Part shown: piece by piece, positions 11,378 to 52,491 of the stretch
Layout: the number at the start of each line of letters is the position of its first letter
Position numbering within the stretch: position 1 is the stretch's first letter
NCBI RefSeq assembly: GCF_026013965.1
Contig: NZ_CP110341.1
Location: 248,001-312,000 of the forward strand
Direction: 5' to 3'
DNA length: 64,000 bases
Source: Brevibacterium sp. JSBI002
Lineage (GTDB): Bacteria > Actinomycetota > Actinomycetes > Actinomycetales > Brevibacteriaceae
The notes under the pieces: generated by a model
Told to the model about the DNA's origin: nothing
The model's input: the letters and a program-made list of their open reading frames with translations, nothing else
Databases searched by the model: none
Program-made: the position numbers and the translations under genes

Positions 11378-11381
11378 GCCG

Positions 11382-35574: not shown

Positions 35575-37005
35575 TCACTTGCGCTCGAGTTCCTCGAGGC
35601 TGGGGTAGATCGTCTCCTTCGGGGCGACTCCGTGGTTGCGGATGAGCACGAAGTAGAGGACGAAGGTGACGACGATGCCGACGAGCCACGAGATGTCCGC
35701 GCCGCCGAGCTTCGCGACCAGCGGGCCGGTGTAGAACGACTGCGCGAGGAACGGGATCTGGATGATCACGCCGACGCCGTAGGCGACGAGTGCCCGCCAA
35801 TTCCATGCGCCGTAGCGGCCGGCCCGGTCGTAGAAGGCGGGGATGTCGAAGCGGTCCTTCGAGATCAGGTAGTAGTCGGTGAGGTTGATGACGCTCCATG
35901 GGGTGAAGACCATGAGCAGGGCGAGGACGAAGTTCTTGAAGTTCGCGAGGAAGTCCGCCGAGGCCAGCAGGGCCACGAGCACGGTGAGGGTGACGATGCC
36001 GATGACGAAGACCGCGCGCGTCCAGCGGCGGATGGTCGCCTTGTTGCCGAAGGAGGTGAGGATCGTCAGCGTGCACATGAACGCTCCGTAGGCGTTGAGC
36101 GTGTTGACGGTGAGCTTGCCCAGCAGGATGACGACGAAGATGAGGAGCGCGAAGACGCCGCCGCCGACGATGTCCCCGACATAGGCGACCTGGTTCTCGA
36201 CGAATTCGTTGCCGGACTCCGTCATGGCGGCGGCTCCGATGAGTGCGCCGAGGGTCATCGACCACTGCGATCCGATGACCGATCCGCCGAAGGTGAACCA
36301 GAAGGTCTTCGATGACGGGGTCGATCGCGGTAGATACCGCGAATAGTCGGCGACGTAGGGGCCGTAGGTCAGCTGCCAGCCCACGGACAGGGCGATCGCG
36401 GAGAGGAAGGCGGGGAAGGCGAACGACGATCCCGAGATCAGTCCGGGAACGTCGACCTGCGTGATCACGCAGTAGGTGATGAAGAGGAATCCGAGCAGAC
36501 CCGTCACCGAGGAGATCCGACCGAGCACATGGATGTACTTGTATCCCAGCAGGGCCACCAGGGCGGTGAGCGCGCCGAAGATGACGATGCCGATCCACGG
36601 AGTCTGCACGCCGATGATCAGATTGACTGCCTGGCCGGACAGGACCGCGCCGGTCGAGGCGAAGCCGATGTACATGAGCACGACGAGAACGAGCGGGATG
36701 ATCGCACCGATGATGCCGAACTGAGCCCGCGAGGAGATCATCTGTGGCAGTCCCAGCTGCGGACCCTGCGCCGAGTGCAGCGCCATGACGATTCCGCCGA
36801 TGATGTTGCCGATGAGCAGGCCGATGATCGCCCAGAGTGCGTCAGCGCCGAAGACGACGGCCAAGGCCCCGTCGACGATCGCGGTGATCTGAGTGTTGGC
36901 GCCGAACCACAGGGTGAACTGGGAACGTGGCGTTCCGTGACGCTCGGCGTCAGGCACCATCTCGATGGATCGCTTCTCGATCCCCGAATTGGTCGTACTC
37001 GCCAT
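35575..37005 (-). CDS. NCS1-family permease (cytosine/purine/allantoin type)
   Basis: The 476-residue protein begins MASTTNSGIEKRSIEMVPDA and has about 12 membrane helices. FTLWFGANTQITAIVDGALA and GPQLGLPQMISSRAQFG are typical of the nucleobase:cation symporter-1 family, as is FTPWSVINLTDYYLISKDRF near 390. NCS1 carriers import cytosine, purines, allantoin, hydantoins or other small ring compounds. A TCCGA-type palindrome shared with the hut operons lies 83 bp upstream, so import of urocanate or another imidazole compound is an attractive inference. The call of NCS1 is firm, the substrate is not. Confidence 0.9.
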   Translation of the reverse strand: MASTTNSGIEKRSIEMVPDAERHGTPRSQFTLWFGANTQITAIVDGALAVVFGADALWAIIGLLIGNIIGGIVMALHSAQGPQLGLPQMISSRAQFGIIGAIIPLVLVVLMYIGFASTGAVLSGQAVNLIIGVQTPWIGIVIFGALTALVALLGYKYIHVLGRISSVTGLLGFLFITYCVITQVDVPGLISGSSFAFPAFLSAIALSVGWQLTYGPYVADYSRYLPRSTPSSKTFWFTFGGSVIGSQWSMTLGALIGAAAMTESGNEFVENQVAYVGDIVGGGVFALLIFVVILLGKLTVNTLNAYGAFMCTLTILTSFGNKATIRRWTRAVFVIGIVTLTVLVALLASADFLANFKNFVLALLMVFTPWSVINLTDYYLISKDRFDIPAFYDRAGRYGAWNWRALVAYGVGVIIQIPFLAQSFYTGPLVAKLGGADISWLVGIVVTFVLYFVLIRNHGVAPKETIYPSLEELERK

Positions 37006-37087
37006 GTTTCTCTCCTTTGAACTGATGGATCTGGTTCAGTGTGGCACCGCCGGTTCGCATCCCACGAGATCCGAGTCACAGGTTTCG

Positions 37088-37101
37088 TCCGAGATATCGG
37101 A
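37088..37101. promoter_or_regulatory. TCCGA-GATA-TCGGA operator upstream of the NCS1 permease
   Basis: Perfect 5-bp arms with a 4-nt centre, the first of four related sites (39810, 42540, 45764). It lies 83 bp before the permease start, in the gap after the acyl-CoA dehydrogenase stop. Confidence 0.7.
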
Positions 37102-37173
37102 AAATCTCGCCGAGGCGGCCCTCGCCTCCCGTGGGATCGACGAGTTCCGGACGATGCGTGCGGGTTTTCGCCT

Positions 37174-37243
37174 CCAAGTTCCGCACAGATCGACCGGAAC
37201 TTGGACGACGTGCACTCAAGCGACGTGCACTCAGGCGACGTGC
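37174..37243. repeat. 10-bp inverted repeat and 15-bp tandem repeats
   Basis: CCAAGTTCCG (37174-37183) and CGGAACTTGG (37195-37204) are perfect inverted arms 11 nt apart. Directly after come GACGTGCACTCAAGC (37207-37221), GACGTGCACTCAGGC (37222-37236) and a partial third unit. The whole gap 37006-37323 has no gene; it holds these repeats and the operator at 37088, and the inverted repeat may end the acyl-CoA dehydrogenase transcript. Confidence 0.55.
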
Positions 37244-37323
37244 CGATCGTAGACCTGGACAAGTTTCGGTGCTGTTTCGCGCTCGGCCTCTCGGACACCG
37301 GCGCCTGTGTTCCGTGCCGGCAG

Positions 37324-38463
37324 CTACTTCGCCAGGGAGCGGGCGATGATCGTGCGTTGGATCTCCGAGGAGCCTTCGTAGATGCGGTAGATCCGGGCAT
37401 CGCGCACGTAGCGTTCCAGCGGGAAGTCCCGGGTGAAGCCGTAACCGCCGTGGATCTGCAGGGCTTCATCGGCGATGAAGGCGGCCGCCTCGGAGGCGGC
37501 GAGTTTCGCTGTGGCCGAGGAGCGGGTGAAATCGACCCCTGAATCGCGCTGTTCGGCGGCGTCCATCGTCAGCAGCCACGCTGATCGGTACTTCGTGTAC
37601 ATGTCCGCGAGCTTGAACGCGATGCCCTGCAAGCGGCCAAGCGGTTTCCCGCTGATCTTGCGCTCGCCCGCCCAATCCACGGCGGCGTCGAGGGCGGCCT
37701 TGCCGATTCCCAGGCTCATCGCCGCGACCTCGATGCGACCACGGTCGAGCACGCGCATTGCCGTCGTGAAGCCTTCGCCTGCGTTCCCGATGAGGGCGTC
37801 CTCGGGAACGACGGTGTCGATGACGAACTCGTAGACCGGACTTCCCCGCAGACCCATCGTCTTCTCCGGGGGATTGAAGTCCAACCCCGCCGAGGCGTCC
37901 GCGGTGTCGACGATGAATGCGCTGATTCCCTTGTGGCCGGCATCGACGTCGGTCTTCGCGTAGACGACGATGAAGTCCGCGAAGCCGGCGTTGGTGATGA
38001 AGCACTTCGTGCCCTTGAGATGCCAACCACCGTCGACCCGTGTGGCCTTCGTCGACATCTCCGCCGGGTTCGAACCGGCACCCGGCTCGGTGAGCCCGAA
38101 AGCGCCGATGACCTCGCCGGCAGCGGCACGTGGCAGCCACGCTTCGCGTTGGGCATCGGTGCCGCCGAGGAGGATCGAGTCGGTGGCGAGGAACTGCGCG
38201 GTGACGATCGACGCGGTCGATGCGCACGCCTCGGTGATGGCGGCGACCATCTGGCTCATCGCCACCGAACCGACGCCGGGCCCGCCGAATTCATCGGGCA
38301 GGTTGAGCCCCATGACCCCCACCTCGGCGAGGGTCTTCAAGGTTTCGTCGGAGACGCGTTCGTTCGCGTCGGCGGAGGCCGCCTGCGGGGCGAGGACGTC
38401 CTTGCTGATCTGGGCGACGGCGTCGACGAGTTCCTGTTCGTCGGCGGAGATTTCGAAGGCCAT
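37324..38463 (-). CDS. Acyl-CoA dehydrogenase (short-chain type)
   Basis: The 379-residue flavoprotein starts MAFEISADEQELVDAVAQIS. FAD and substrate motifs are GAFGLTEPGAGSNPAEM (near 125-141) and CFITNAGFADFIVVYAK. The C-terminal QIHGGYGFTRDFPLERYVRD and IYRIYEGSSEIQR contain the probable catalytic glutamate. It resembles butyryl-CoA-type dehydrogenases, forming a 2,3-enoyl-CoA and passing electrons to ETF. It is 93 nt downstream of a CaiB-type CoA-transferase, so the two probably activate and dehydrogenate one acid. The transferase has a hut-like operator upstream, linking this pair to histidine catabolism by inference. Confidence 0.92.
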   Translation of the reverse strand: MAFEISADEQELVDAVAQISKDVLAPQAASADANERVSDETLKTLAEVGVMGLNLPDEFGGPGVGSVAMSQMVAAITEACASTASIVTAQFLATDSILLGGTDAQREAWLPRAAAGEVIGAFGLTEPGAGSNPAEMSTKATRVDGGWHLKGTKCFITNAGFADFIVVYAKTDVDAGHKGISAFIVDTADASAGLDFNPPEKTMGLRGSPVYEFVIDTVVPEDALIGNAGEGFTTAMRVLDRGRIEVAAMSLGIGKAALDAAVDWAGERKISGKPLGRLQGIAFKLADMYTKYRSAWLLTMDAAEQRDSGVDFTRSSATAKLAASEAAAFIADEALQIHGGYGFTRDFPLERYVRDARIYRIYEGSSEIQRTIIARSLAK

Positions 38464-38556
38464 GAGTGCTCCTTGGAGGTAAGGTGATCGTGAGGTGAAG
38501 AGGATGTGCGTGGAGGGAGGCGTCCGCGGGAGGAGCCGAATCCTTCGGCCCGCGGC

Positions 38557-39762
38557 TCAGTTCGCCGACTCGGTCGGTTCGGCCGAGTCCGTCGAATCCG
38601 TTGGGTCCGATGGCTTCGTCCGCCCCGCCTCGGCGAAGTCTGCATTGTGCTCGCCGAGGCGGGGCGCCGGAAGCGCGGACGCCGGGCGGGTGCCGTCGAC
38701 GAGGAGCGGGTGGCCGAGGAAGGCGTGTCCGGACCGGGGATCGGTGGCAGTGAGATCGCGATCGGAGCCGATGGGGCCGGTGACCGCCTCGGCGAAATCG
38801 AGGACGGGGGAGTTCGGGATTCCGGCGGCATCGAAGATCTCGCACAGCTCGGTCACGATGCGCCCGGTGGTGAATTCTTCGATCTCGATGCGCAGCGCGT
38901 CGTCGTTGTCCGACCGATGCGCGTCGGTGGCGAAGCGCGGATCGGTGGCCAGCTCCGGCTTGCCGAGGGTGGCGGCCAGGGTGGCGAAGAGTCGGTCGTT
39001 GGCCACGGCGATGACGAGGAGTCCGTCGGCGGCGCGATAGGTGTCGAACGGTGCCGAAACGGGGTGGCGGTTGCCGACCCGGGTGGGGGCGGATCCGGCG
39101 GAGTGGAGGGAAGCGTTCGTCGGCTGCATGGCGAGCATGACGTCGAGCATCGGAATGTCGATATGGGCGCCTTCGCCGGTCGTCTGGCGGTGGAAGAGCG
39201 CCGAGGAGATGCCGAAGGCGGCGAAGACTCCGGCGGAGACGTCGGCGATGGATTCGCCGACTCGGGTGGGGGACCCGTCGGGGAAGCCGGTCGAGGCCAT
39301 GAGCCCGCTCAGGGCTTGAATGACGGTGTCGTAGGCGGGGCGTTTTGCTTGGGCGCCGTGCTGTCCGAAGCCGGAGATCGACGCGTAGACGATATCGGGC
39401 TTGACGGCCTTGAGGTCCTCATAGGACAGGCCGAGCTTCGCGGCGACTCCGGGGCGGAAGTTCTCGACGACGACATCGCAGCTCGTGATGAGATCGAGCA
39501 GGCGAGCGTGGTCTTCCGGGTCCTTGAGATCGGCCTCGATCGAGCGCTTTCCGCGGTTGAGTCCGGTGAAGTAAGTCGACCCGGATTCAGTGAAGGGTCC
39601 GAGATGTCGGGAATCGTCCCCGTGGCCGGGCATCTCGATCTTGATGACCTCGGCGCCCTGGTCGGCGAGCATCGCCGTGGCGTAGGGACCGGCGAGGACT
39701 CGGGAGAAATCGGCGACCCGAACCCCGGTCAGCAGCTGCTTCGTTGCGTTCATGATCCTCAT
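38557..39762 (-). CDS. CaiB/BaiF (family III) CoA-transferase
   Basis: The 401-residue protein (second ATG gives MNATKQLLTGVRVADFSRVL) has family III motifs: RVLAGPYATAMLADQGAEVI, then KRSIEADLKDPEDHARLLDL, and the catalytic-aspartate region VVENFRPGVAAKLGL, YASISGFGQHG. It moves CoA from one acyl-CoA to another acid. The C-terminal tail (PSDPTDSTDSAEPTES) is a low-complexity Pro/Ser/Asp/Thr extension. It is followed by the acyl-CoA dehydrogenase and preceded by a TCCGA-type operator 48 bp before the start. Confidence 0.92.
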   Translation of the reverse strand: MRIMNATKQLLTGVRVADFSRVLAGPYATAMLADQGAEVIKIEMPGHGDDSRHLGPFTESGSTYFTGLNRGKRSIEADLKDPEDHARLLDLITSCDVVVENFRPGVAAKLGLSYEDLKAVKPDIVYASISGFGQHGAQAKRPAYDTVIQALSGLMASTGFPDGSPTRVGESIADVSAGVFAAFGISSALFHRQTTGEGAHIDIPMLDVMLAMQPTNASLHSAGSAPTRVGNRHPVSAPFDTYRAADGLLVIAVANDRLFATLAATLGKPELATDPRFATDAHRSDNDDALRIEIEEFTTGRIVTELCEIFDAAGIPNSPVLDFAEAVTGPIGSDRDLTATDPRSGHAFLGHPLLVDGTRPASALPAPRLGEHNADFAEAGRTKPSDPTDSTDSAEPTESAN

Positions 39763-39809
39763 CTTCGGCGCTGACCTGGGCTAAGACAACGGGGTCTCCG
39801 CGGATTTCG

Positions 39810-39823
39810 TCCGAGGTGTCGGA
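39810..39823. promoter_or_regulatory. TCCGA-GGTG-TCGGA operator upstream of the CoA-transferase
   Basis: Perfect 5-bp arms, 48 bp before the CoA-transferase start. The flanking TTTCG-TCCGA is shared with the site at 37088. Confidence 0.7.
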
Positions 39824-39886
39824 CGGACGGGTACGCAGTCTGGGCTGGGCTGGAGTCGCGACGGTCTCGGTCGCCGGAGTCGAGGA

Positions 39887-39947
39887 GAGTTCCGGCCGTT
39901 CCGTGCGGGAAATGGGTGTTTGTTCCCGCACGGAACGTCCGGAACTC
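39887..39947. terminator. Long hairpin after the thiolase gene
   Basis: Arms of 25 nt (starting GAGTTCCGGCC, ending GTCCGGAACTC) pair with one mismatch around an 11-nt loop. It lies 41 nt after the thiolase stop and upstream of the CoA-transferase, so the thiolase transcript probably ends here. Confidence 0.75.
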
Positions 39948-39987
39948 AGTTCTGCCTTGAAAAGATCAGGCTCAGGAGGGGTGAGTC

Positions 39988-41210
39988 TCAGGCGACGCGT
40001 TCGAAGACTGCGGCCATTCCCTGACCGCCGCCGATGCACATGGTCTCGACTCCGTAGCGCGATTCGCGGCGATCCATCTCCCGCAGCAAGGTGGCGAGGA
40101 TGCGCCCACCGGTCGCGCCGACCGGGTGGCCCAGTGAGATGCCCGAGCCGTTGACGTTGAGACGCTCGGCGAAGTCGGATTCGGACAGTTTCCATTCGGT
40201 CGTGCAGGCGAGCACCTGCGCCGCGAATGCCTCGTTGAGTTCGATGAGGTCGATATCGCCGAGTTCGAGACCTGCGCGCTGCAGTGCCTTCGCGGTCGCG
40301 GGGACCGGACCGATGCCCATCGTCTTCGGCGGCACTCCGGCCACCGCCCAGCTGCGCATGCGGGCGAAGACCCGCAGCCCGAGCTCGGCGCCTTGGCCGC
40401 GGTGGTGACGATGCACAGAGCGGCGCCGTCGTTCTGGCCCGAGGCGTTGCCCGCGGTCACCGTGGCCTCATCGTCGGACTTCCCGAGCATCGGCTTGAGC
40501 TTCGCGAGCTTCTCGACCGTCGATCCGGAGCGGATGTGCTCGTCGGTCGTGATGACCTGTTCGGGGGTCTTCCTGGTGGCCGGCAGCGTGATCGGCACGA
40601 TCTCCTCGGCGAACTTCCCCTCTTCCGTCGCAGAGGCGGCCCGACGATGCGATTCCACGGCGTAGGCGTCCTGGTCCTCCCGCGAGATCTTGTACTCCCG
40701 ACGCAGGTTCTCCGCGGTTTCGATCATTCCGCCGGGCACCGGATAATCCTTGCCGCCGGCGGTGAGGCGGCCGCGGACGAGACCGTCCTTGAGTTCGATG
40801 TTGCCGCCCTTGACGCCCCACCGGATCTCCTCGTTGAAGAACGGTGCGCGGCTCATCGACTCGACACCGCCGGCAACGACGAGGTCGGCGAAGCCAGCTG
40901 AGATCATCGCGTGAGCGTCGGCGATCGCCTGCAGGCCGGAGCCGCAGCGACGGTCGACCTGTCGGCCGGGAACGGTGATCGGCAGTCCCGCATTGAGGGC
41001 GACGACGCGGCCGATCGCCGGAGTCTCCATGTGCGGATAGCAGTTGCCGAGGACGACATCCTCAATGGCCTCGCCCGGCAGGTTGGTCTTCTCCAGCAGA
41101 GCTGTGAGGACCTGTCGGCCGAGCTCCTCATGCGGAACGTTCTTGAACTGTCCGCCGAATCCGCCCACGGGGGAGCGGAGAGGTTCGCAGATGACGATGT
41201 CTTCGGACAC
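39988..41210 (-). pseudogene. Acetyl-CoA C-acetyltransferase (thiolase) with single-base frameshift
   Basis: The first frame (from 41210, MSEDIVICEPLRSPVGGFGG) carries the N-terminal thiolase domain, including VDRRCGSGLQAIADAHAMI with the acylation cysteine near 90 and GGVESMSRAPF. After TAGNASGQNDGAALCIVTTA the conserved sequence moves to another frame (ELGLRVFARMRSWAVAGV) and runs to 39988 with ELNEAFAAQ, NGSGISLGHPVGATG and CIGGGQGMA. The span of 1,223 nt implies one missing base near 40387-40396. If it is an assembly error, the intact protein has about 407 residues. The second catalytic Cys and His lie after the frameshift. Confidence 0.88.
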
Positions 41211-41478
41211 AGAGTCTCCCTTTGGGTTGTGATCGAGCCGTCCTGCCGCGGCGGTGAGGCATCGATCCCTTCGGCATCACTGCCGATGCTGATATCAATA
41301 CATTCTGATTTATGAACATATCCGAATAGATCTCGAGAGACAAGAGGTCGTCTCAATGAATGGGTATCCGGACACGCATCAGATGGTCGGCGGACGCGTG
41401 CGCGGCGAACGATGGTGGGCTCGGTCGCGTGGGCGACGGACGTGGAGGTTTTCCGAACGGCGGTGAAGCCGGCCGAGC

Positions 41479-42372
41479 TCAGCGGACTGTCGGCAGGACC
41501 GCCTCGGCGACATCGAGGACCGTGCTCAGGGCTGCGTCCTGTTGGTCGAGGCGGTATGCGAGGTGAAGCTGGGTAGCTTCGTTCGGGAGGTCGAGCGGCA
41601 CCGCGGTGATCCGCGAGTCGTAGCCGGCGGCGACGGAGTCGAACGTGATCGTCACACCCATTCCGGCGGCCACGAGCGCAGAGATCGACTGCGAATCGGG
41701 GGCCTCCTGGACCGTGCGCGGGCTGAACCCGGCATCGAGGCATAGGCGCATGGCGGTCTCGCGCAGGTTCGAATTCGGGCGCGCGGGCAGAAGGACGAAA
41801 GGCTCGTCGGCGAGCTCTGCGACGTCGATCTTCTTCCGATTCGCCAGGTGATGTGAACTCGGCAGGGCGACACATGGGCGCTCGATCGCCACTGGGCGAC
41901 CCGCGATGAGCGGAGGCCGCCGGCGCCAACGGACAAGGGCGAGATCGAGCGTGCCGTCCATGATCCGCTCGAGACCCTCGTCGGCATAGACGGTCGACTC
42001 GAGGTGGAAGGTGATTCCCGGACTGCGTTCGTGTGAGGCGGCCACGAGGGTGGCTGCCAAGTCGCGGGAAGACGGGTGCGAATACCCGAAGCGAACCCGG
42101 CCGACCTCGCCGCTGGAGGAGCGGTGGACGGATTCGATCGCGGCCTGCTGGGTCGCGAGCATGTGTTTGGCCGGTTCGAGCAGGGCCTCGCCTGCGGAGG
42201 AGAGGCTGACCGAGCGGGTTGTGCGCTGGAACAGTGAGGCGCCGAGTTCGGTCTCGAGGGAGCGGATGGTGCGGCTCAGCGGAGGCTGGGCCATGCCGAG
42301 GCGTTCGGCAGCGCGGCCGAAGTGGAGTTCCTCGGCGACGGCGACGAAGGCGCGGATCTGCTGCAGCTCCAA
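41479..42372 (-). CDS. LysR-family transcriptional regulator, divergent from hutU
   Basis: The 297-residue protein starts MELQQIRAFVAVAEELHFGR, with the helix-turn-helix at about 1-60 (AAERLGMAQPPLSRTIRSLE) and an effector domain from about 90 (VRFGYSHPSSRDLAATLVAA). It is transcribed away from hutU, with 335 bp between the starts, the usual arrangement for a LysR activator. A candidate LysR box is at 42427-42444. Control of hutU, or of the acyl-CoA genes on its own strand, is possible. Confidence 0.9.
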   Translation of the reverse strand: MELQQIRAFVAVAEELHFGRAAERLGMAQPPLSRTIRSLETELGASLFQRTTRSVSLSSAGEALLEPAKHMLATQQAAIESVHRSSSGEVGRVRFGYSHPSSRDLAATLVAASHERSPGITFHLESTVYADEGLERIMDGTLDLALVRWRRRPPLIAGRPVAIERPCVALPSSHHLANRKKIDVAELADEPFVLLPARPNSNLRETAMRLCLDAGFSPRTVQEAPDSQSISALVAAGMGVTITFDSVAAGYDSRITAVPLDLPNEATQLHLAYRLDQQDAALSTVLDVAEAVLPTVR

Positions 42373-42426
42373 CGTTTCTCCATTCGGTTCGCTCTGGTCG
42401 GTTCTCGGTGTGGGTGGATCATTATC

Positions 42427-42444
42427 ATTGCACGATTCGGCAAT
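42427..42444. promoter_or_regulatory. Candidate LysR box ATTGC-N8-GCAAT
   Basis: Inverted arms ATTGC and GCAAT enclose ACGATTCG in an AT-rich stretch, 55 bp upstream of the LysR gene start. The spacing fits the T-N11-A pattern of LysR-type sites. Confidence 0.5.
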
Positions 42445-42539
42445 AATGCCAGGTGTGTTTACCGAAGCGCGGGCTGCTCTTCGTGGGGTGGATTGGATCT
42501 GTTCCCGGGCTGCGAGTTTCTGCCGTCAATTTCAGTCCG

Positions 42540-42553
42540 TCCGAAATGTCGGA
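42540..42553. promoter_or_regulatory. TCCGA-AATG-TCGGA operator upstream of hutU
   Basis: Perfect 5-bp arms, extended on both sides (CCG-TCCGA...TCGGA-CGG). It lies 155 bp before the hutU start. Third member of the four-site family. Confidence 0.75.
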
Positions 42554-42707
42554 CGGAACTTGATGCGGGCCACTTCCGCATTCTGCTCCAGTCGTCAGAA
42601 TGGATGGTGTAGTCAGAGCCGACAGCGCAGGGGAGCCCACACCTCGGCGCGACCGCGAAGCGGCAGCCAAGCATCCGCCTCGTCGGACACAGCGACAAGG
42701 AGAACCC

Positions 42708-44429
<1,722 letters not shown>

Positions 44430-44481
44430 GCAGTCTGCGGCGCAGCTGCGTACACGGGCGCGGTCGCGGCTGAAGCGGGCA

Positions 44482-44550
44482 CTTTGGTACACGCTGTTCT
44501 GAATTGCTCACGTTCCTCGGTGGGCATTTCAGAACAGGGTGTACCAAAAG
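44482..44550. repeat. About 26-bp imperfect inverted repeat after hutU
   Basis: CTTTGGTACACGCTGTTCTG (from 44482) is mirrored by CAGAACAGGGTGTACCAAAAG (ending 44550), with a loop of about 16 nt. It lies between the hutU stop and the terminator at 44584. It could be a second terminator, a miniature element or a binding site; there is no flanking duplication I can see. Confidence 0.6.
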
Positions 44551-44583
44551 AGCAAACTGCCGTGTGGCTGCTGAATAGCTCGA

Positions 44584-44629
44584 AAAAAGTCGAGCAGCAC
44601 AGTTTTGAAACAGTGCTGCTCGACTTTTT
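44584..44629. terminator. Bidirectional intrinsic terminator between hutU and SDR genes
   Basis: AAAAAGTCGAGCAGCAC (44584-44600) pairs perfectly with GTGCTGCTCGACTTTTT (44613-44629), and inner GTTT/AAAC bases extend the stem. A-run and T-run on either side make it a classic terminator for the convergent genes hutU (+) and SDR (-). Confidence 0.93.
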
Positions 44630-44679
44630 GTGTGCCGCGGGGAATTGTCGACCGCGAGTAATCGGCTGCGCCGCGAACC

Positions 44680-45570
44680 CTACTCGTCGAGGAAGAGGTC
44701 GAGCTCGAGGTCGTTGGGCCCGTGACCGACGGAACCGGACTTCGACGCATCATGGGCGTAAGCCGAGAGGTCCGTGACACCTTGAGCCGCCAACACCTCG
44801 TCGTCGATGAAGAAATTGCCGGTGACCTCGCGGGGGCCGCTGGTAAGGATCACCCATGCCGCCCCGGCCATGATCTCGGGCTTGCGGCTGCGCGCCATGA
44901 GCTGTTCGCCGCCGAGGAGGTTGTTCACAGCGGCCGTCGCGATCGTCGTCCGTGGCCACAGGCTGTTCGCCGCGACTCCGGCCTCGCGCTGCTCCTCGGC
45001 CAGCCCGAGCGTGACCAGCGACATCCCGTACTTCGCCATCGTGTAACCCAGGTGCCTGCCCGCCCATGCCGGATTGAGATTGAGCGGCGGGGAGAGCGTG
45101 AGCACATGCGCGGCGTCCGAGGCTCGGAGGTGCGGCAGAGCCGTTTTGGCCAGAAGGTAGGAGCCACGTGCGTTGATCGAGTTCATGAGATCGAACTTCT
45201 TCATCGGCAGGTCCTCGACTGGGGAGAGGTCGATGGCGCTGGCATTGTTGACGACGATGTCGATGCCCCCGAAGGTCTCAACGGTCTTCGCGACCGCTTC
45301 GGCGACGGATTCGTCGCTGCGGACGTCACCGATGATCGGCAGGGCCTTGCCGCCGGCCGCCTCGATCTGCTCGGCCGCGGTGTAGACCGTGCCCTCGAGC
45401 TTCGGGTGCGGTTCCGCGGTCTTCGCCAGCAGCGCGACGTTCGCCCCGTCCTGGGCTGCGCGCAGAGCGATCGCCAGTCCGATTCCACGGCTGCCGCCGC
45501 TCATGATGATCGTCCGTCCGGCCAGCGATCGGGTGGAATCTCCCTCGCCGAGGTGGCTGTCAGTGGTCAT
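44680..45570 (-). CDS. Short-chain dehydrogenase/reductase (HSDL2-like)
   Basis: The 296-residue protein has the cofactor motif IIMSGGSRGIGLAIALRAAQ near 20-40, NNASAIDLSP near 112, and the active-site YTMAKYGMS near 180 with catalytic Tyr and Lys; the usual catalytic Ser region reads LTLSPPLNL. The ANVALLAKTAEPHPKLEGTV stretch and FIDDEVLAAQGVTDLSAY ending match the hydroxysteroid-dehydrogenase-like 2 subgroup, thought to act on fatty-acyl substrates. It lies between hutU and hutI and is divergent from hutI, sharing the region with the TCCGA operator at 45764. Confidence 0.88.
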   Translation of the reverse strand: MTTDSHLGEGDSTRSLAGRTIIMSGGSRGIGLAIALRAAQDGANVALLAKTAEPHPKLEGTVYTAAEQIEAAGGKALPIIGDVRSDESVAEAVAKTVETFGGIDIVVNNASAIDLSPVEDLPMKKFDLMNSINARGSYLLAKTALPHLRASDAAHVLTLSPPLNLNPAWAGRHLGYTMAKYGMSLVTLGLAEEQREAGVAANSLWPRTTIATAAVNNLLGGEQLMARSRKPEIMAGAAWVILTSGPREVTGNFFIDDEVLAAQGVTDLSAYAHDASKSGSVGHGPNDLELDLFLDE

Positions 45571-45763
45571 CGTTCGTCTCCTTCATCCGTAGTCCGATGA
45601 TCGTATCCGTGTGTTCGGTGCTCGGGTCCGTGTGTCCGCGATCCGTTGATCAGGATGGATATGAGCCAGGCTAGCCTTCGGGCGACGACTTTGCCCAGGT
45701 GTCAGGTGCTTCCGGTGCCCGACAGCGAGGGTGACCGTTCCGACAGGACGGCATGAATTCTTG

Positions 45764-45777
45764 TCCGAAATATCGGA
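45764..45777. promoter_or_regulatory. TCCGA-AATA-TCGGA operator upstream of hutI
   Basis: Perfect 5-bp arms extended by G/C (GTCCGA...TCGGAC), 87 bp before hutI and 194 bp before the divergent SDR gene. Best-conserved of the four sites. Confidence 0.75.
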
Positions 45778-45863
45778 CGAATATCTTTCTTGGCCGTTCA
45801 CTGCCGTTCGTCGACAGTCCATACTGGGACTGAACCACACTCGATCGGAAAGGGCCGACCGTC

Positions 45864-47135
45864 ATGCAGCTATTCACCGGGATCAGCGAACTCGTCGTCA
45901 ATGATCTCGACCGTCTCGGCGAACTCGACGTGATCGCTGACGCCGCTCTGCTCGTCGACGCCGGTCGGGTGATCTGGTCGGGACCGTCCGCACAGGCGGA
46001 CACCGCGCTCGCTGCACACGAGGACCAGACCGGCACCACCGGCCTCAGCGACGATGACATCGCCAACGGGGAAGTCACCTCGGCGAATGACCTCGGCGGG
46101 CTCGAGACGATCGACCTCGGTGGGAAAGCCGTCATCCCCGGCTTCGTCGACAGCCACAATCACCTCATCTTCGCCGGTGACCGGTCCGAGGAGTTCGCGG
46201 CTCGGATGGCCGGTCAGAAGTACTCGGCCGGGGGGATCGCCACCACCGTGGCAGCCACCCGCGCCGCCACCGAGACCGAACTCGAGGCCAACCTCGTCCA
46301 CCTGATGGGGCAGGCGCAGCGGCAGGGCACGACGACGTTCGAGGTCAAGACTGGGTACGGGCTGACCGTCCCCGACGAGATCCTCGCGCTCGACATCATC
46401 AACCGGCACACCGAGGAATCGACGCTCATCGCCGCCCACGTCGTCCCGCCGGAATTCAAGGACGATCCGGAACGCTATGTCGACCTCGTCATCGACGAGA
46501 TCATCCCCGCAGCCGAGGGCAAGGCGAAGTGGATCGACGTGTTCTGCGAAACCGGTGCCTTCACCGAGGACCAGACCCGGCGGATCATCGAAGCCGGCAA
46601 AGCCGTCGGCATGAAACCGCGGCTGCACGCCAACCAGCTCACTGAGGGCGGGGCGCTCAAGCTCGGCGCGGAACTCGGCTGTGTGTCTGTCGACCACGCG
46701 ACCTTCGCCTCCGTTGAGGACCTGGCTGTCCTCGCCGAGGCGGGCACCGTCGTCACCCTGCTGCCGAGCATCGAATTCTCCACCCGCCAGCCCTACCCCG
46801 ACGCCCGCCGCTACGTCGACGCGGGGGTGTCACTGGCGATCGCCAGCGACTGCAATCCCGGCTCCGGGTTCTCCAACAGCATGCCCTTCGTCATCGCCAT
46901 CGGCGTTCGCGACATGCACTTCACCGTCGAACAGGCAGTGTGGGCGGCGACCGCGGGAGGGGCGAATGCTCTGCAGCGCACCGATGTCGGCCACCTCGGG
47001 GTGGGTGCTCGAGCCGATCTGGCCATCCTCGACGCCCCCAGCTACCGCCACCTGGCCTACCGGCCCGGTGTGCAGCTGGTCGAGAGGGTCTATTCCGGCG
47101 GTGAGCTCATCGTCGACAACCGACCCCGAGACTGA
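45864..47135 (+). CDS. hutI: Imidazolonepropionase
   Basis: The 423-residue metal-dependent amidohydrolase hydrolyses 4-imidazolone-5-propionate to N-formimidoyl-glutamate, step three of the pathway. Visible motifs are VIPGFVDSHNHLIFAGDRSE (metal ligands, near 90), KYSAGGIATTVAATR, TTFEVKTGYGL, IAAHVVPPEF near 196, and ASDCNPGSGFSNSMPF near 330 with the metal-binding Asp. The N-terminus MQLFTGISELVVNDLDRLGE follows GGAAAGG. It heads an operon with hutH, an M20 hydrolase, hutF and an IclR regulator. Confidence 0.96.
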   Translation: MQLFTGISELVVNDLDRLGELDVIADAALLVDAGRVIWSGPSAQADTALAAHEDQTGTTGLSDDDIANGEVTSANDLGGLETIDLGGKAVIPGFVDSHNHLIFAGDRSEEFAARMAGQKYSAGGIATTVAATRAATETELEANLVHLMGQAQRQGTTTFEVKTGYGLTVPDEILALDIINRHTEESTLIAAHVVPPEFKDDPERYVDLVIDEIIPAAEGKAKWIDVFCETGAFTEDQTRRIIEAGKAVGMKPRLHANQLTEGGALKLGAELGCVSVDHATFASVEDLAVLAEAGTVVTLLPSIEFSTRQPYPDARRYVDAGVSLAIASDCNPGSGFSNSMPFVIAIGVRDMHFTVEQAVWAATAGGANALQRTDVGHLGVGARADLAILDAPSYRHLAYRPGVQLVERVYSGGELIVDNRPRD

Positions 47136-47170: not shown

Positions 47171-48847
47171 ATGACCACATTCATCGATCTCGACCCCGAT
47201 ACGCTGACCTTCGCCGAGGTGGTCGACGTCGCCCGTCGCGGAGCGTTGGTCTCGCTGTCCGAAGCTACCCTGGCCCGGGTGAACAAATATCGCGAGGCCA
47301 TCGACGCCCTCGCTCAGGCGGAGAAGCCCGTCTACGGAGTCTCGACCGGATTCGGTGCGCTCGCCCAGCGCCACATCCCCGCCGCACTGCGCACCCAGCT
47401 GCAGAAATCCCTCATCCGCTCCCACGCCGCCGGCGTCGGCGAACCCGTCGAACGCGAGGTCGTGCGCGCCCTCATGCTGCTGCGCGCCCGGACACTTGCC
47501 ACCGGTCGGGCCGGCGTCCGCGCCGAAGTCCTCCAGACCTACGTCGACCTGCTCAACGCCGGAATCACCCCGGTCGTCCACGAATACGGATCACTCGGCT
47601 GCTCCGGTGACCTCGCACCACTGTCGGCATGCGCACTCGTCGTCATGGGCGAAGGCGTGGCCGAGGGACCCGACGGAGTGGCGGGGCCTGCCGATGAGAT
47701 CCTCGCGAAGGCCGGAATCACCCCGGTCACCCTGGCCGAGAAGGAAGGCCTCGCGCTCGTCAACGGCACCGACGGCATGCTGGGCATGCTCATCATGGCC
47801 CTGACCGACCTGGAGAACCTGCTCACCGCCGTCGACGTGTCCGCGGCCATGAGCATCGAAGGACTCTTCGGCACCGACGCCGTCTTCGCCCCCGAACTCC
47901 ACTACGCGCTGCGCCCGCACGACGGTCAGGCCGCCTCGGCCGCGAACATGCTCGCCTCGCTCAAGGACTCGGGCATCACCGCCAGCCACCGCGACTCCAC
48001 CCACCTCGTCCAGGACGCGTACTCGATGCGCTGCGCCCCGCAGGTCAACGGCGCCGCGCGTGACGCCGTCGCCTTCGCCGCCCAGGTCGCCGAACGCGAG
48101 CTGCGCGCCGCCATCGACAACCCGGTCGTGCTCACCAACGGAATGGTGTCCTCGAACGGCAACTTCCACGGAGCGCCCTTGGCCCATGCCCTGGACTTCC
48201 TCGCCATCGTCGCCGCCGACGTCGCCTCGATGTCCGAGCGTCGCACCGACCGGATGATGGATGTCGCCCGCAATCAGAACCTCACCCCGTTCCTCGCCGA
48301 TGACGCCGGTGTCGACTCCGGCCTGATGATCGCCCACTACACGCAGGCGGCCATGGTCTCCGAGGCCAAGCGCGGCGCGACCCCGGCTTCGGTCGACTCG
48401 ATCCCGTCTTCGGCGATGCAGGAAGACCACGTGTCCATGGGGTGGTCGGCCGCACGCAAGCTGCGCAAGGTCGTCGACAACCTCGCTTCCGTCGTCGGCA
48501 TCGAACTCTATGCCGCCTCCCGAGCCTGCGATATGCGCGACGCCGCACCGGCACCGGTGACCGGAGCCGTGATCGCGGCGATCCGTGAGACCGTGCCGGG
48601 GCCCGGACCCGACCGGTTCCTCTCGCCCGAACTCGCCGAGACCATCGCGAAGGTCAAGGACGGCTCGCTCGTCGCCGCCGCCGAGTCGGTCGCACCGCTG
48701 ACCCACACCGTCACCGCTGCTGCCGGAACCTGGCAACCGGAAGACGGCGGACCGGCCGTCAACGATCCCGAGTTCACTGCGCTGGGCAACCTCGAAGCCG
48801 CCGCCGAGGCGTCGGGCACCTCAGCAGCCACCACCCACCAGGACTGA
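47171..48847 (+). CDS. hutH: Histidine ammonia-lyase
   Basis: The 558-residue enzyme deaminates L-histidine to urocanate, the entry step. VYGVSTGFGALAQRHIP near 54 holds the catalytic tyrosine. The prosthetic MIO group normally forms from Ala-Ser-Gly; here the triad is Cys144-Ser145-Gly146 in EYGSLGCSGDLAPLSACALV. Other motifs are GKALVNGT-like EGLALVNGTDGMLG, QDAYSMRCAPQVNG and SSNGNFHG. The C-terminus is about 40 residues longer than usual (Ala/Glu-rich). It is 35 nt after hutI. Confidence 0.96.
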   Translation: MTTFIDLDPDTLTFAEVVDVARRGALVSLSEATLARVNKYREAIDALAQAEKPVYGVSTGFGALAQRHIPAALRTQLQKSLIRSHAAGVGEPVEREVVRALMLLRARTLATGRAGVRAEVLQTYVDLLNAGITPVVHEYGSLGCSGDLAPLSACALVVMGEGVAEGPDGVAGPADEILAKAGITPVTLAEKEGLALVNGTDGMLGMLIMALTDLENLLTAVDVSAAMSIEGLFGTDAVFAPELHYALRPHDGQAASAANMLASLKDSGITASHRDSTHLVQDAYSMRCAPQVNGAARDAVAFAAQVAERELRAAIDNPVVLTNGMVSSNGNFHGAPLAHALDFLAIVAADVASMSERRTDRMMDVARNQNLTPFLADDAGVDSGLMIAHYTQAAMVSEAKRGATPASVDSIPSSAMQEDHVSMGWSAARKLRKVVDNLASVVGIELYAASRACDMRDAAPAPVTGAVIAAIRETVPGPGPDRFLSPELAETIAKVKDGSLVAAAESVAPLTHTVTAAAGTWQPEDGGPAVNDPEFTALGNLEAAAEASGTSAATTHQD

Positions 48848-48967
48848 CGCCGGGCCGGGGCCGGTCGCTGACCGGACCAGACCGCCGGGCCTCTGATGCC
48901 AGGGTCGGCCGACCACGGCACCGACACATCACCGGACCCGACCGATTTCGAACGGAGTGAACTGACA

Positions 48968-50236
48968 ATGAGCGATGTCGTCTCGCTGCTGAGCCAGATC
49001 GAGGACACCGGCCGCGACACCCGCGGGCCGGGCTACCAGCGGCCCGGATTCTCGGACACCGAACGGGAACTGCGTGAGTGGTTTCTCGCCGAGGCGGCCC
49101 GCCGCGGTCTCGATACCGAGATCGACGCCAACGGAATCACGTGGGCCTGGGCCACCCCGCCTGGTGACAATGCCGTGGTCACCGGTTCCCACCTCGACTC
49201 GGTGCCCGGCGGCGGCGAGTTTGACGGTCCTCTCGGTGTCGCCTCGGCGCTGGCGGCCTTCGATGTGCTCAAGGCCTCCGGCGCACTCGAACAGTCCACC
49301 CGGCCCTTCGGGCTGGCTGTGTTCCCCGAGGAAGAAGGTTCACGCTTCGGCGTCGCCTGCCTCGGTTCGCGGCTGCTCACCGGTGCCATCGACGCCGACC
49401 GCGCACTCGGTCTCAAGGACGCCGCCGGTGACTCCTTCGCCGACGTCGCCCGTGGCTATGGCCTCGATCCGGATCGGATCGGGCGTGACCAGTCTCGACT
49501 GGCCGGAATCGGTTCCTTCATCGAACTCCATGTCGAACAGGGCATCGGTCTGATCAACACCGATCAGGCCGTCGCCATCGGCTCCTCGATCATCGGCCAC
49601 GGGCGCTGGCACTTCGCCTTCTCCGGCCAGGGCAACCACGCCGGTACGACGCCGATGAGCCATCGCGCCGACCCGGTGGTCGCAGCTTCCCGCGTGATCG
49701 GGGATATCCCGACCCTAGCGGCCGCCACTGACGCGACTGCCGTGGCGACCGTGGGGCGCACTCTCATCCACCCGGGCGGGACGAACGTCATTGCCTCGTC
49801 GATGAGCTTCTGGCTCGACATCCGTCATCCCGACGATGCCGTCGTCGAACAAGTGCTTGAGGCGATCAGCCGACGTGCGAAGGACCTCGGCGCCGAGTCC
49901 GGTGTCGAGGTGACCATCTCGCAGGAGTCCTACTCGCCGACGACCCACTTCACCGCCGATCTCAATTCGCGCCTGACCTCCGTGCTGCCGGACGCTCCGC
50001 TGCTGCCCTCGGGGGCCGGACACGATGCCGGAATCCTCGCACCCCATGTGCCGTCGGCGATGCTCTACGTCCGCAATCCGACCGGCGTCTCTCACGCTCC
50101 CGAAGAGGCCTGCGAGGTCGACGACCAGAGGGCCGGGGTTGATGCGCTCGCCAAGGTGCTCGCCCGCGAACTCGGTATCGAAAACGCGTTCGCCGAGGCC
50201 AGCGCCGGAGGCCCGGCGACGGGGGGTGCACGATGA
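48968..50236 (+). CDS. M20-family amidohydrolase in the hut operon (allantoate amidohydrolase-like)
   Basis: ATG 48968 (MSDVVSLLSQIEDTGRDTRG) gives 422 residues. Metal motifs are TGSHLDSVPGGGEFDGPLG near 76-94, VFPEEEGSRFGVACLGSR near 120, ELHVEQGIGL and GVSHAPEE near 385. By family it cleaves N-carbamoyl or allantoate-like substrates. In this operon it sits exactly between hutH and hutF and overlaps hutF by four bases (ATGA). HutF yields N-formylglutamate, which HutG would normally deformylate; no hutG is seen, so this enzyme may do that job. That role is inference. Confidence 0.85.
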   Translation: MSDVVSLLSQIEDTGRDTRGPGYQRPGFSDTERELREWFLAEAARRGLDTEIDANGITWAWATPPGDNAVVTGSHLDSVPGGGEFDGPLGVASALAAFDVLKASGALEQSTRPFGLAVFPEEEGSRFGVACLGSRLLTGAIDADRALGLKDAAGDSFADVARGYGLDPDRIGRDQSRLAGIGSFIELHVEQGIGLINTDQAVAIGSSIIGHGRWHFAFSGQGNHAGTTPMSHRADPVVAASRVIGDIPTLAAATDATAVATVGRTLIHPGGTNVIASSMSFWLDIRHPDDAVVEQVLEAISRRAKDLGAESGVEVTISQESYSPTTHFTADLNSRLTSVLPDAPLLPSGAGHDAGILAPHVPSAMLYVRNPTGVSHAPEEACEVDDQRAGVDALAKVLARELGIENAFAEASAGGPATGGAR

Positions 50237-51681
50237 GCACCCGTTACTGGTGCGAATCCGCCTGGGTCGACGGAGCCGTCGCCCGCGGAGTCCTGCTGAG
50301 CGCCGACGACACCGGAACGCTCACCGCCGTCGAGACCGGGATCGACACCGCACCGTCCGACGCCGAAGCGGTGTCCGGGTTCATCCTGCCCGGCGGAGTC
50401 AACGCGCACTCGCATGCCTTCCACCGGATGCTGCGCGGCCGCACCCATGGCGACGGCGGCACCTTCTGGACCTGGCGCGAAGTCATGTACTCCGTCGCCG
50501 CGAAACTCGACCCCCAGTCCTACGAGACCGTGGCCCGCGCCGTTTTCGCCGAGATGCTCGCCGGCGGCTACACCTCGGTGGGGGAGTTCCACTACGTCCA
50601 CCACGTTCAGGACGGAACGCCCTACGGCGCTGAACGTCCCGGTGGGGACGCGGCGGATCCGGTCTCCGACGCGGACGAACACACCGAGCGTCCCGGCGGG
50701 GACGCGAACGACGATGCCGGACACCGCGCCCACGCGATGGAACGGGCGCTGGCACGGGCGGCCGCCTCGGTGGGGATCCGCATTCGACTGCTCGACACCT
50801 GCTACCTCACCGGCGCCATCGATACCGAGCTCTCGGCTGAACAGGCCCGGTTCGGTGACGGCACGATCGACGGGTACATGGACCGGCACGCCGGATTGGT
50901 CGACTCCTTTGCCGACGAATTCCCCGTCAACGCCCCCGGTGAGAGCTTCGTGCACGTGGGTGCGGCGATCCATTCGATCCGCGCGGTCCCGGCCGCAAAC
51001 CTGCCTCGCTTCACCGAACTGTCCGGCCCCGTGCACGTGCACCTGTCCGAGCAGCCGGCCGAGAACGACGCTTCACAATCGGCCTACGGGGCTAGCCCCA
51101 CCGAGGTGCTCGCCCGCTCGGGCGTCGTCGACGACAGGCTCTCGGCCGTCCATGCCACGCACCTGAGCGAGAAGGACATCGCGCTCCTCGGCGGATCCCG
51201 GTCGACGATCGTCATGTGCCCGTGCACCGAGGCGGACCTCGCTGACGGCATCGGACCGGCCCGGGAACTCGCCGACGCCGGAGCTGTGATCTCGCTCGGC
51301 TCCGACCAGCACGTCGTCCTCGACGCCCTGCGCGAGACCCAAGGGCTCGAGGCGGGGGAGCGGCTGCGGTCGGGTCAGCGCGGACGATTCTCCCCGGCCG
51401 AACTCATCACGGCACTCACCGAAGGCGGGGCACGCAGCCTCGACCTGCCCGTCGGCGCGCTCGAGGTCGGGAAGGCATGCGATTTCGTCGCCCTGCGCAC
51501 CGACAGCATGCGCACCATGGGATCACGGGACGAACAGATCATCCTCACGGCCACCTCGGCGGACGTGTCCTTGACCGTCAGCGGCGGTCGAGTGCGCGTG
51601 CGCGACGGCGTGCACGCCGAACTCGGGGACATCTCCGAGCTCTACGCGCAGGCGTTCGCGGCGCTGGAGATGGAAGGCTGA
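50233..51681 (+). CDS. hutF: Formimidoylglutamate deiminase
   Basis: The 482-residue amidohydrolase starts MSTRYWCESAWVDGAVARGV. GFILPGGVNAHSHAFHRML near 50 carries the first metal His pair; GRTHGDGGTFWTWREVMY follows, typical of HutF. Later motifs are HVHLSEQPAEND near 270, DDRLSAVHATHLSEKDIALL, and ISLGSDQHVVLDAL near 355. It converts N-formimidoyl-glutamate to N-formyl-glutamate plus ammonia. The extended Gly/Asp-rich segment near 135-165 looks like an insert. Its start overlaps the M20 gene and its stop is 3 nt before the IclR gene. Confidence 0.94.
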   Translation: MSTRYWCESAWVDGAVARGVLLSADDTGTLTAVETGIDTAPSDAEAVSGFILPGGVNAHSHAFHRMLRGRTHGDGGTFWTWREVMYSVAAKLDPQSYETVARAVFAEMLAGGYTSVGEFHYVHHVQDGTPYGAERPGGDAADPVSDADEHTERPGGDANDDAGHRAHAMERALARAAASVGIRIRLLDTCYLTGAIDTELSAEQARFGDGTIDGYMDRHAGLVDSFADEFPVNAPGESFVHVGAAIHSIRAVPAANLPRFTELSGPVHVHLSEQPAENDASQSAYGASPTEVLARSGVVDDRLSAVHATHLSEKDIALLGGSRSTIVMCPCTEADLADGIGPARELADAGAVISLGSDQHVVLDALRETQGLEAGERLRSGQRGRFSPAELITALTEGGARSLDLPVGALEVGKACDFVALRTDSMRTMGSRDEQIILTATSADVSLTVSGGRVRVRDGVHAELGDISELYAQAFAALEMEG

Positions 51682-51684
51682 GTC

Positions 51685-52491
51685 GTGGCTGAGGTTCCGG
51701 CACTGCGGCGGGCGATCGCGATCCTGCGGCATATGGCCTCGTCGAATCGGTCGATTACGGCCGGCGCCCTGGTCCGGTCGCTCGAGATTCCGCGGTCGAG
51801 TGCGTATGGCATCCTCGCCGTGTTGGAGGAGCTCGGGCTCGTGGCGCGCACCGAATCCGGGTATGTGCTCGGAGCCGGTGTGCACGAGCTCGGGGCGTCC
51901 TACCTGCGGACGAACCCCTTGCAGCGGTTGGCGCACCCGATCGTGCGACAGCTGGCCGAAGATACAGCCGCCACGGCACAGCTCGCGATCATCCGCGGTT
52001 GGGAGACCGAGTACGTGCTCAAGGAGCAGTCGCTGAAGTCGGTTGCCGTCATCACCGCCACCGGGGTGCGCATGCCCAGCTACCTCACCGCGACGGGGCG
52101 GGCGATCCTCGCGCAGCTGCCGAAGTCCGAGGTGCTCGCGATGTTGCAGTCCGAGACCGGATTCGTCACCCGCACCGGTAAGGGCCCGACCTCGGTCAAG
52201 GCCCTCAACGCCGTGCTCGCCCAGGAGAGGCGAGTCGGCTGGGCGATCGAACATGGAGAGGTGACGCCGGGCATCTCGACGATCGCGGCACCGGTGTTCG
52301 ATGTGCTGGGACGCCCGATCGCCGCCGTCGGACTGTCAGTGTCCGACAGTGTGAAGGCCACGGGAACGAGGGCGGATAAGGGCACGGGGAAGGACCTGGA
52401 TCAGGGGCCTGGGGTGGACTCCGATCCATTGGCGTCGCTGGTTGAGAAGGTCATCGCCACCGCCGCCGAGGTGACCGCGAAGCTGCGGTGA
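51685..52491 (+). CDS. IclR-family transcriptional regulator of the hut operon
   Basis: The 268-residue protein starts at GTG 51685 (AEVPALRRAIAILRHMASSN). The winged helix-turn-helix is at about 10-60 (ITAGALVRSLEIPRSSAYGI) and the IclR effector domain from 75 to about 235, with ATGVRMPSYLTATGRAILAQ and the GVTPGISTIAAPVFD-like EVTPGISTIAAPVFD. A hydrophilic Gly/Asp/Lys linker interrupts the C-terminus. It is the last gene of the hutI operon and is the best candidate to bind the four TCCGA palindromes, sensing urocanate or another pathway intermediate; this is inference. Confidence 0.9.
   Translation: MAEVPALRRAIAILRHMASSNRSITAGALVRSLEIPRSSAYGILAVLEELGLVARTESGYVLGAGVHELGASYLRTNPLQRLAHPIVRQLAEDTAATAQLAIIRGWETEYVLKEQSLKSVAVITATGVRMPSYLTATGRAILAQLPKSEVLAMLQSETGFVTRTGKGPTSVKALNAVLAQERRVGWAIEHGEVTPGISTIAAPVFDVLGRPIAAVGLSVSDSVKATGTRADKGTGKDLDQGPGVDSDPLASLVEKVIATAAEVTAKLR

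Follow-up and report, generated by a model that had tools for sequence, protein, structure and literature searches.

Conserved palindromes as putative operators of an IclR-type HutR and its urocanate-centred regulon in Brevibacterium

Introduction

HutR of Corynebacterium resistens is an IclR-family regulator with the operator GTCTGWWATWCCAGAC and, in the accessible passages of PMC8222616, falls into an IclR motif group of the form GTNCG-N5-6-CGNAC together with CatR, PcaU, PobR, MhpR and others. The histidine utilisation (hut) cluster of C. resistens is described in PMC3350403. Here, we analyse a 64,000-nucleotide stretch of Brevibacterium sp. JSBI002 (contig NZ_CP110341.1, positions 248001-312000 of the 3.74 Mb one-contig genome), referred to as the window, in which four palindromes precede hutU, hutI, a gene pair for a coenzyme A (CoA)-transferase and an acyl-CoA dehydrogenase, and the gene of an NCS1-family permease. 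We propose, with a probability of roughly 0.8, that these palindromes are the operators of an IclR-type HutR, which would control a urocanate-centred regulon in Brevibacterium, probably by activation, with a CoA loop for the pair.

As far as the published passages allow the comparison, the locus resembles that of C. resistens HutR in its IclR-type regulator of histidine utilisation and in an inverted repeat of 16 bp that shares its spacing, its GTC arms and its AT centre. It differs in the arms, GTCCGA/TCGGAC, and in having the CoA pair, the NCS1 permease and other feeder branches, the likeness being one of motif and family. The group form is found before the hut genes, where GTCCG-N6-CGGAC fits GTNCG-N5-6-CGNAC, and the C. 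resistens form is found in part; no group member with exactly this operator appears in the passages of PMC8222616. In the available descriptions, HutC of Pseudomonas, a GntR-type repressor of hut genes, is likewise a local regulator of the hut pathway, but the candidate here is IclR-type and thus of a different protein family. No GntR-type (HutC) regulator was found at the hut operon, whose own regulator is IclR-type and whose adjacent one is LysR-type. Regulator type and motif class are known already, and no prior description of the arms, the regulon content, the promoter spacing or a hut-linked CoA-transferase clade was found in the searchable parts of the open-licence PMC literature.

Palindromes in the window and in the genome

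An exact search of the window for TCCGANNNNTCGGA (0 mismatches) returned exactly four palindromes, at 37088, 39810, 42540 and 45764. All are intergenic and lie upstream of an open reading frame (ORF) start, by ~82 bp for the NCS1 permease, 47 for the CoA-transferase, 154 for hutU and 86 for hutI. The search and the ORFs bear out the preliminary description of this DNA, which had reported four perfect-arm palindromes in front of start codons. Its remark that no copy lies inside a gene holds for perfect copies and fails for a one-mismatch copy, TCCGAGATGTCGGG, at 39598-39611 in the 5' part of the CoA-transferase gene. This near-copy has 2 mismatches of 12 in close relatives, and it was dropped as an operator and read as coding-driven because it is absent in this form from L084-L094 (comparison loci and genomes carry L and G numbers).

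When the window was shuffled 500 times with dinucleotides preserved, the mean was 0.308 palindromes and the maximum 3, and four were reached in 0/500 shuffles; with an RRTR centre required, on either strand, the mean was 0.008. A scan of the window for arm spacings of 0-10 gave one further match, at spacing 3. Across the whole genome, the core palindrome occurs 18 times compared to 2 for the reversed control pattern. The 16-mer GTCCGA-DNTD-TCGGAC (GTCCGADNTDTCGGAC) is found at 4 places in this genome, three in the window and one at 465118, and is present in 43 of 60 family genomes, with one occurrence of the reversed control across all 60. A loose genome-wide pattern (<=3 mismatches) discriminated little, with 244 places compared to 97 for the control. 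Searched genome-wide, as had been proposed at the outset, the motif proved neither common nor unrelated to promoters: there are few copies of the 16-mer, and across the genus they precede the same four genes.

In favour of chance or coding-driven repeats, 14 of the 18 core palindromes lie outside the window. The probability of this explanation is nevertheless negligible. No shuffle reached four, and the place and form of the sites are conserved while the controls are empty (see below). Ten of the outside copies were read with 60 bp downstream per side; among these ten, the flanking G and C never occur together (a T...C form is seen in L009 and L015), and none has a -10 pattern at +41..+45. The palindromes are real and beyond chance.

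Conservation across Brevibacterium

Conservation was scored in 52 genomes, using the window and loci of 51 relatives out of the set of 60 (the other eight were left out). A gene was counted if it was above the identity threshold with at least 60 bp upstream, and the best 16-mer within 300 bp before the ORF start was rated by its mismatches of 12. The genus-wide site is KTCCGA-NATN-TCGGAC, with a NATN centre and arms one base longer outward (129 sites, 47 different); the RRTR centre given in the preliminary description fails as a general feature and was a small-sample artefact. The site precedes hutU, hutI, the CoA-transferase/acyl-CoA dehydrogenase pair and the NCS1 permease. Before hutU (n=39), it has 0 mismatches in 32 genomes, 1 in 4 and 2 in 3, and before hutI (n=42), 0 in 26, 1 in 4, 2 in 1 and >=3 in 11. 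CoA-transferase sites (n=31) have 0 mismatches in 14, 1 in 12, 2 in 4 and 3 in 1, and lie exactly 46 bp before the ORF start in 25 of the 30 genomes with <=2 mismatches. For the NCS1 gene (n=31), the numbers are 0 in 1, 1 in 27, 2 in 1 and 4 in 2. Two control genes, hutH and the regulator gene (n=42 each), had a site with <=1 mismatch in 0/42 genomes, the best having 2 mismatches (6 genomes and 1 genome, respectively).

The eleven genomes in which hutI has no site are informative. In ten, the gap between the end of hutU and hutI is 15-125 bp, and with such a gap the hutI site is absent in 10/10 genomes, while the smallest gap with the site kept is 262 bp. Nine of the ten are readable upstream of hutU, and a site with <=2 mismatches is found there in 9/9. 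In the eleventh, G020, hutU is remote and the best match is TTCCGGCATTTCAGAC, with 3 mismatches. Since the hutI site is missing where hutI lies directly behind hutU, the sites go with transcription units. In L085, L086, L090, L092 and L094, the CoA-transferase and NCS1 sites are kept with no hut gene in the stretch examined. G010 and G020 have CoA-transferases of 73-74% with no NCS1 or hut match nearby, yet carry a 2-mismatch site at the same 46 bp. This genus-wide conservation, together with sites kept at pairs away from hut genes, supports the earlier proposal of a hut regulon that includes the CoA module and the NCS1 permease, and we regard the regulon as near certain. Lone sites were seen in G017 (L224), on contig 16 of G026 (L221, within an ORF) and on contig 33 of G048 (L219).

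Position relative to predicted promoters

A set of 44 thinned hutI, hutU and NCS1 promoters was anchored on the site and aligned, two hutU rows (G041, G051) having been dropped because their best match lay >300 bp from the start. In 33 cases a -10-like hexamer, [CT]ANRNT, begins at +41..+45 past the site, compared to <=3 in any other 5-nt bin (hutI 12/15, hutU 12/17, NCS1 9/12; unthinned, 27/31, 37/43 and 18/29). The distance from site to start codon varies from 56 to 254 bp while this -10 spacing stays fixed. With transcription starting ~7 bp past the predicted -10 box, the centre of the site would lie near -62, where class I activators usually sit. The fixed spacing and this position point to activation, on which the preliminary description was silent, and HutR probably activates at the hutI, hutU and NCS1 promoters. 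Five promoters of a BCCT-type branch (see below) carry CAGCAT at +43, judged by eye and one letter off the pattern.

Many catabolic IclR-type regulators repress, and HutR could bind the same sites as a repressor, to be released by urocanate or another inducer. We consider this unlikely, because at hutI, hutU and NCS1 the site is located upstream of the predicted -35, keeps a constant phase to the -10 and would not cover the promoter.

The candidate regulator

The IclR gene is the last of the hutI operon, as it is in the relatives aligned, and its product carries IclR DNA-binding and effector domains (PF09339 and PF01614). Orthologs (E<=1e-60) are present in 51 of the 60 genomes and hutU in 54. 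The exact 16-mer (DNTD centre) occurs in 39 of the 51 genomes with an IclR ortholog, and in most of the 12 others hutU or hutI is preceded by a site with 0-2 mismatches; in G012, hutU is absent at 1e-150. G008 has hutU, hutI and hutH but no IclR ortholog, and its 17-kb stretch holds no site with <=2 mismatches (AT, AC or GT centre). G057, from another genus, has a 49% IclR homolog in the stretch with its hut genes; a 2-mismatch site precedes its hutU, and an exact site precedes an NCS1 gene of 53%. At the order level, the regulator was matched at 1e-50 in 20 of 248 genomes, 18 of them Brevibacterium; the two others (43-44%) have no hut gene in the stretch examined. L267, from another family, encodes an IclR protein 43% like HutR near two 2-mismatch palindromes, GTCTGATATTTCAGAC and ATCCGAAATATCAGAC (7692-7741), which lie between divergent non-hut genes.

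Binding by another protein, either the LysR neighbour (41479-42372) or a regulator encoded elsewhere, is improbable. In the window, and in several relatives as well, the LysR gene does adjoin the hutU site, but an ortholog at >=79% exists in just 22 of 60 genomes, and it is missing at E<=1e-90 in G006, G007, G035, G043 and G050, all of which have exact hutU sites and IclR. LysR was excluded as a general binder on these grounds, and the motif itself belongs to an IclR class in the accessible literature. Gene position, motif class and the exclusion of LysR speak for the IclR gene, which the preliminary description had also named, and it is the best candidate for the binding protein, HutR, and a likely one.

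The CoA-transferase and acyl-CoA dehydrogenase pair

In the CaiA/CaiB carnitine enzymes and in the CarA/CarC caffeate loop, a pair of CoA-transferase and acyl-CoA dehydrogenase family enzymes links a saturated acid to an unsaturated one. The solved relatives of the acyl-CoA dehydrogenase of the window include CarC (6fah). Unlike CaiA/CaiB, the pair scores below the carnitine cut-offs (173 vs 540 bits for crotonobetainyl-CoA dehydrogenase, 111 vs 413 bits for L-carnitine CoA-transferase), and unlike either system it would be hut-controlled and is proposed to run in the oxidative direction. The pair may work in the manner of the acrylate/propionate CoA loop: a family III CoA-transferase gene and an acyl-CoA dehydrogenase gene are neighbours under one putative operator. 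Urocanate and imidazole propionate are linked by the urocanate reductase UrdA in the accessible text of PMC13320830. UrdA makes imidazole propionate, whereas the pair described here would consume it through CoA esters.

Relatives of the CoA-transferase were taken as the best 80 loci of a longer list. Eleven of these are Brevibacterium; ten of the remaining 69 have hutU in the stretch examined, and one more, L111, has a HAL-family gene there. A 61-row tree, built from the window and 60 of the 80 loci (no hut match occurs in the 20 that were left out), places all 22 CoA-transferases that we labelled hut-linked in one clade of 25 with support 100/99, and the label requires 4 changes compared to 18.3 in shuffles. 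L100 and L101 were included under this label because the same contigs hold hutU (L072, L073); L108 and L110 carry sites and share their contig with hutU at a distance of ~22 kb. Three members lack the label: L109 (B. luteolum), where a 2-mismatch site precedes the gene; L125, which sits at a contig end (3.5 kb); and L114, with non-hut neighbours. The clade spans Actinomycetota, Alpha- and Gammaproteobacteria (three bacterial classes). The urocanate hydratases near its members are canonical where scanned (L112, L115, L121, L123); these and hutU of the window are above the hutU cut-off and below both thiourocanate cut-offs, and thiourocanate was rejected as the substrate of these five.

The Brevibacterium partner in this clade is the acyl-CoA dehydrogenase. 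An Alphaproteobacterial operon, IclR - PIG3-like oxidoreductase - CoA-transferase - hutU, is conserved in L115, L117, L118 and L121-L124 and adjoins a divergent ABC transporter, with a TRAP transporter in L115. The PIG3-like oxidoreductase scores below its cut-off, and the short contig L137 has the set without IclR. L111-L113 (Serratia, Cedecea, Enterobacter) carry a betaine-type ABC transporter, a HAL-family lyase, the CoA-transferase, a 3-hydroxyacyl-CoA dehydrogenase and an enoyl-CoA hydratase; in L112 and L113 this set stands beside hutG, hutI, hutU, hutC and hutF.

There is about an even chance that the pair serves another acid, such as glutarate, imidazole lactate or a hydroxy acid, or beta-oxidises the urocanate side chain. 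In favour are related solved or named enzymes, which include succinate-glutarate-type CoA-transferases and glutaryl-CoA dehydrogenases, and the Gammaproteobacterial clade members beside enoyl-CoA hydratase and 3-hydroxyacyl-CoA dehydrogenase genes. However, neither a hydratase nor a 3-hydroxyacyl-CoA dehydrogenase is encoded in the Brevibacterium operon itself, membership of the clade goes with urocanate hydratase, and an acyl-CoA dehydrogenase turns a saturated acyl-CoA into an enoyl-CoA, which fits imidazole propionate and urocanate. Since the pair consists of a transferase and a dehydrogenase only, the simplest chemistry that leads to urocanate would be to oxidise imidazole propionate via CoA esters, and we tentatively suggest, at somewhat under even odds, that the Brevibacterium pair does this through a CoA loop.

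A thiolase ORF (39972-41210, minus strand) lies near the pair and is frameshifted: Pfam sees Thiolase_N only, the C-terminal half continues in another frame, and relatives match it in two pieces. It is a broken gene or a sequencing error. It was set aside as a part of the pair because several relatives (e.g. L083-L088) have no thiolase match beside the pair and the window copy is frameshifted. Among solved proteins, the NCS1 permease has a single relative at E<=0.001, the hydantoin permease Mhp1.

Further site-bearing branches and features of the window

A second HAL-family lyase is present in 5 of the 60 genomes, and the exact 16-bp site precedes its operon in 5/5 (L215-L218, L275). In the three loci checked, a BCCT-type transporter precedes the lyase (an ORF in L215 and L216, a match in L275). 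The L216 lyase scores 580 bits against the HutH cut-off of 539 and may thus be no more than a second histidine ammonia-lyase; the type of transporter is all that hints at a trimethylated substrate. In G000, G026 and G029, the site stands after the end of an acyl-CoA synthetase-like gene and before a YfcC-like transporter (363.8 bits, below the cut-off of 500), which in G026 and G029 is next to an M20 amidohydrolase. In the genome of the window, a fifth exact site of 16 bp is flanked by an acyl-CoA synthetase-like gene and a YfcC-like transporter (L225, C1:455200-475100, 9284-11929). This transporter is cut to 183 aa and matches the profile end only, compared to ORFs of ~470-530 aa in G026 and G029, so the branch is probably dead here.

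The coordinates of the window features are collected in Table 1. The M20-type amidohydrolase of the hutI operon perhaps catalyses the N-formylglutamate step.

Table 1. Putative operators, predicted -10 boxes and genes of the proposed regulon in the window
Feature	Coordinates	Strand	Basis
Operator of NCS1 permease, GTCCGAGATATCGGAA	37087..37102	.	<=2 mismatches, 76-81 bp before NCS1, 29/31 genomes
Operator of CoA-transferase/acyl-CoA dehydrogenase pair, GTCCGAGGTGTCGGAC	39809..39824	.	<=2 mismatches in 30/31 genomes
Operator of hutU, GTCCGAAATGTCGGAC	42539..42554	.	<=2 mismatches in 39/39 genomes
Operator of hutI operon, GTCCGAAATATCGGAC	45763..45778	.	<=2 mismatches in 31/42 genomes
Predicted -10 box CACACT of NCS1 gene	37038..37043	-	44 bp past operator; conserved spacing
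Predicted -10 box CAGAAT of hutU	42596..42601	+	42 bp past operator; conserved spacing
Predicted -10 box CATACT of hutI	45820..45825	+	42 bp past operator; conserved spacing
NCS1-family permease	35575..37005	-	PF02133 (Transp_cyt_pur) 208.9 bits, cut-off 23.5
Acyl-CoA dehydrogenase	37324..38463	-	PF00441/PF02770/PF02771; under every NCBIfam equivalog cut-off
Family III (CaiB-type) CoA-transferase	38557..39762	-	PF02515 391 bits; under every NCBIfam equivalog cut-off
hutU, urocanate hydratase	42708..44429	+	TIGR01228 894 bits, cut-off 375
hutI, imidazolonepropionase	45864..47135	+	TIGR01224 354 bits, cut-off 298
hutH, histidine ammonia-lyase	47171..48847	+	TIGR01225 624 bits, cut-off 539
M20-type amidohydrolase (named allantoate amidohydrolase)	48896..50236	+	NF006770 540 bits, cut-off 372
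hutF, formimidoylglutamate deiminase	50233..51681	+	NF006681 494 bits, cut-off 362
IclR-family regulator, candidate HutR	51685..52491	+	PF01614 100 bits, PF09339 43 bits, both above cut-off

Discussion

In the proposed mechanism, HutR would bind the palindromes as operators and control a regulon made of the core hut pathway (hutU; hutI-hutH-amidohydrolase-hutF-hutR) and feeder branches. It would sit ~62 bp upstream of the hutI, hutU and NCS1 starts, beside a poor -35, and activate them. The NCS1 permease would import an imidazole acid. The CoA-transferase would move CoA from urocanyl-CoA to imidazole propionate, the acyl-CoA dehydrogenase would convert imidazolepropionyl-CoA to urocanyl-CoA, and the freed urocanate would pass to HutU. 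The sites, their conservation, their link to transcription units, the fixed promoter spacing and the clade of hut-linked CoA-transferases are observed; binding, activation, the inducer and the substrates of the pair and the permease are predicted.

Several observations weigh against this account. The -10 hexamer found 33 times at +41..+45 was picked after the alignments were seen. The CoA-transferase promoter does not have the shared spacing and has TTGTCTT conserved at ~+19..+25; the site is perhaps near -41 there. The exact 16-mer also occurs in 4 of the 9 genomes without an IclR ortholog (G013, G037, G038 and G057), of which G013, G037 and G038 have no hutU at 1e-150. G059 has a 46% IclR homolog beside hutU but no visible site, an argument against a code shared outside the genus. 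Imidazole propionate may not be the substrate in every taxon of the CoA-transferase clade, since the partners elsewhere are an oxidoreductase or a hydratase with a 3-hydroxyacyl-CoA dehydrogenase.

More tentatively still, the results can be joined in one view, in which the hut-linked clade would be a general means to feed imidazole C3 acids into histidine catabolism at urocanate, with exchangeable redox partners. In Brevibacterium, the CoA-transferase/acyl-CoA dehydrogenase/NCS1 set would be an oxidative imidazole propionate route, turned on by HutR together with BCCT plus second HAL-family lyase and YfcC-type plus M20 branches that may deliver urocanate or histidine.

No such imidazole propionate-oxidising genes were found in the titles and abstract starts of the open-licence PMC papers listed by the searches. 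Breakdown of imidazolepropionate by Pseudomonas testosteroni was reportedly the subject of work in the 1970s. In the accessible parts of PMC11872695 and PMC13320830, imidazole propionate is connected with cardiometabolic disease and treated as a product, with no bacterial breakdown route given. For Brevibacterium, the regulon offers a HutR code that can be tested and in which the spacing from operator to promoter is fixed, and if the pair does oxidise imidazole propionate, it would provide candidate genes for the removal of this microbial (gut) metabolite.

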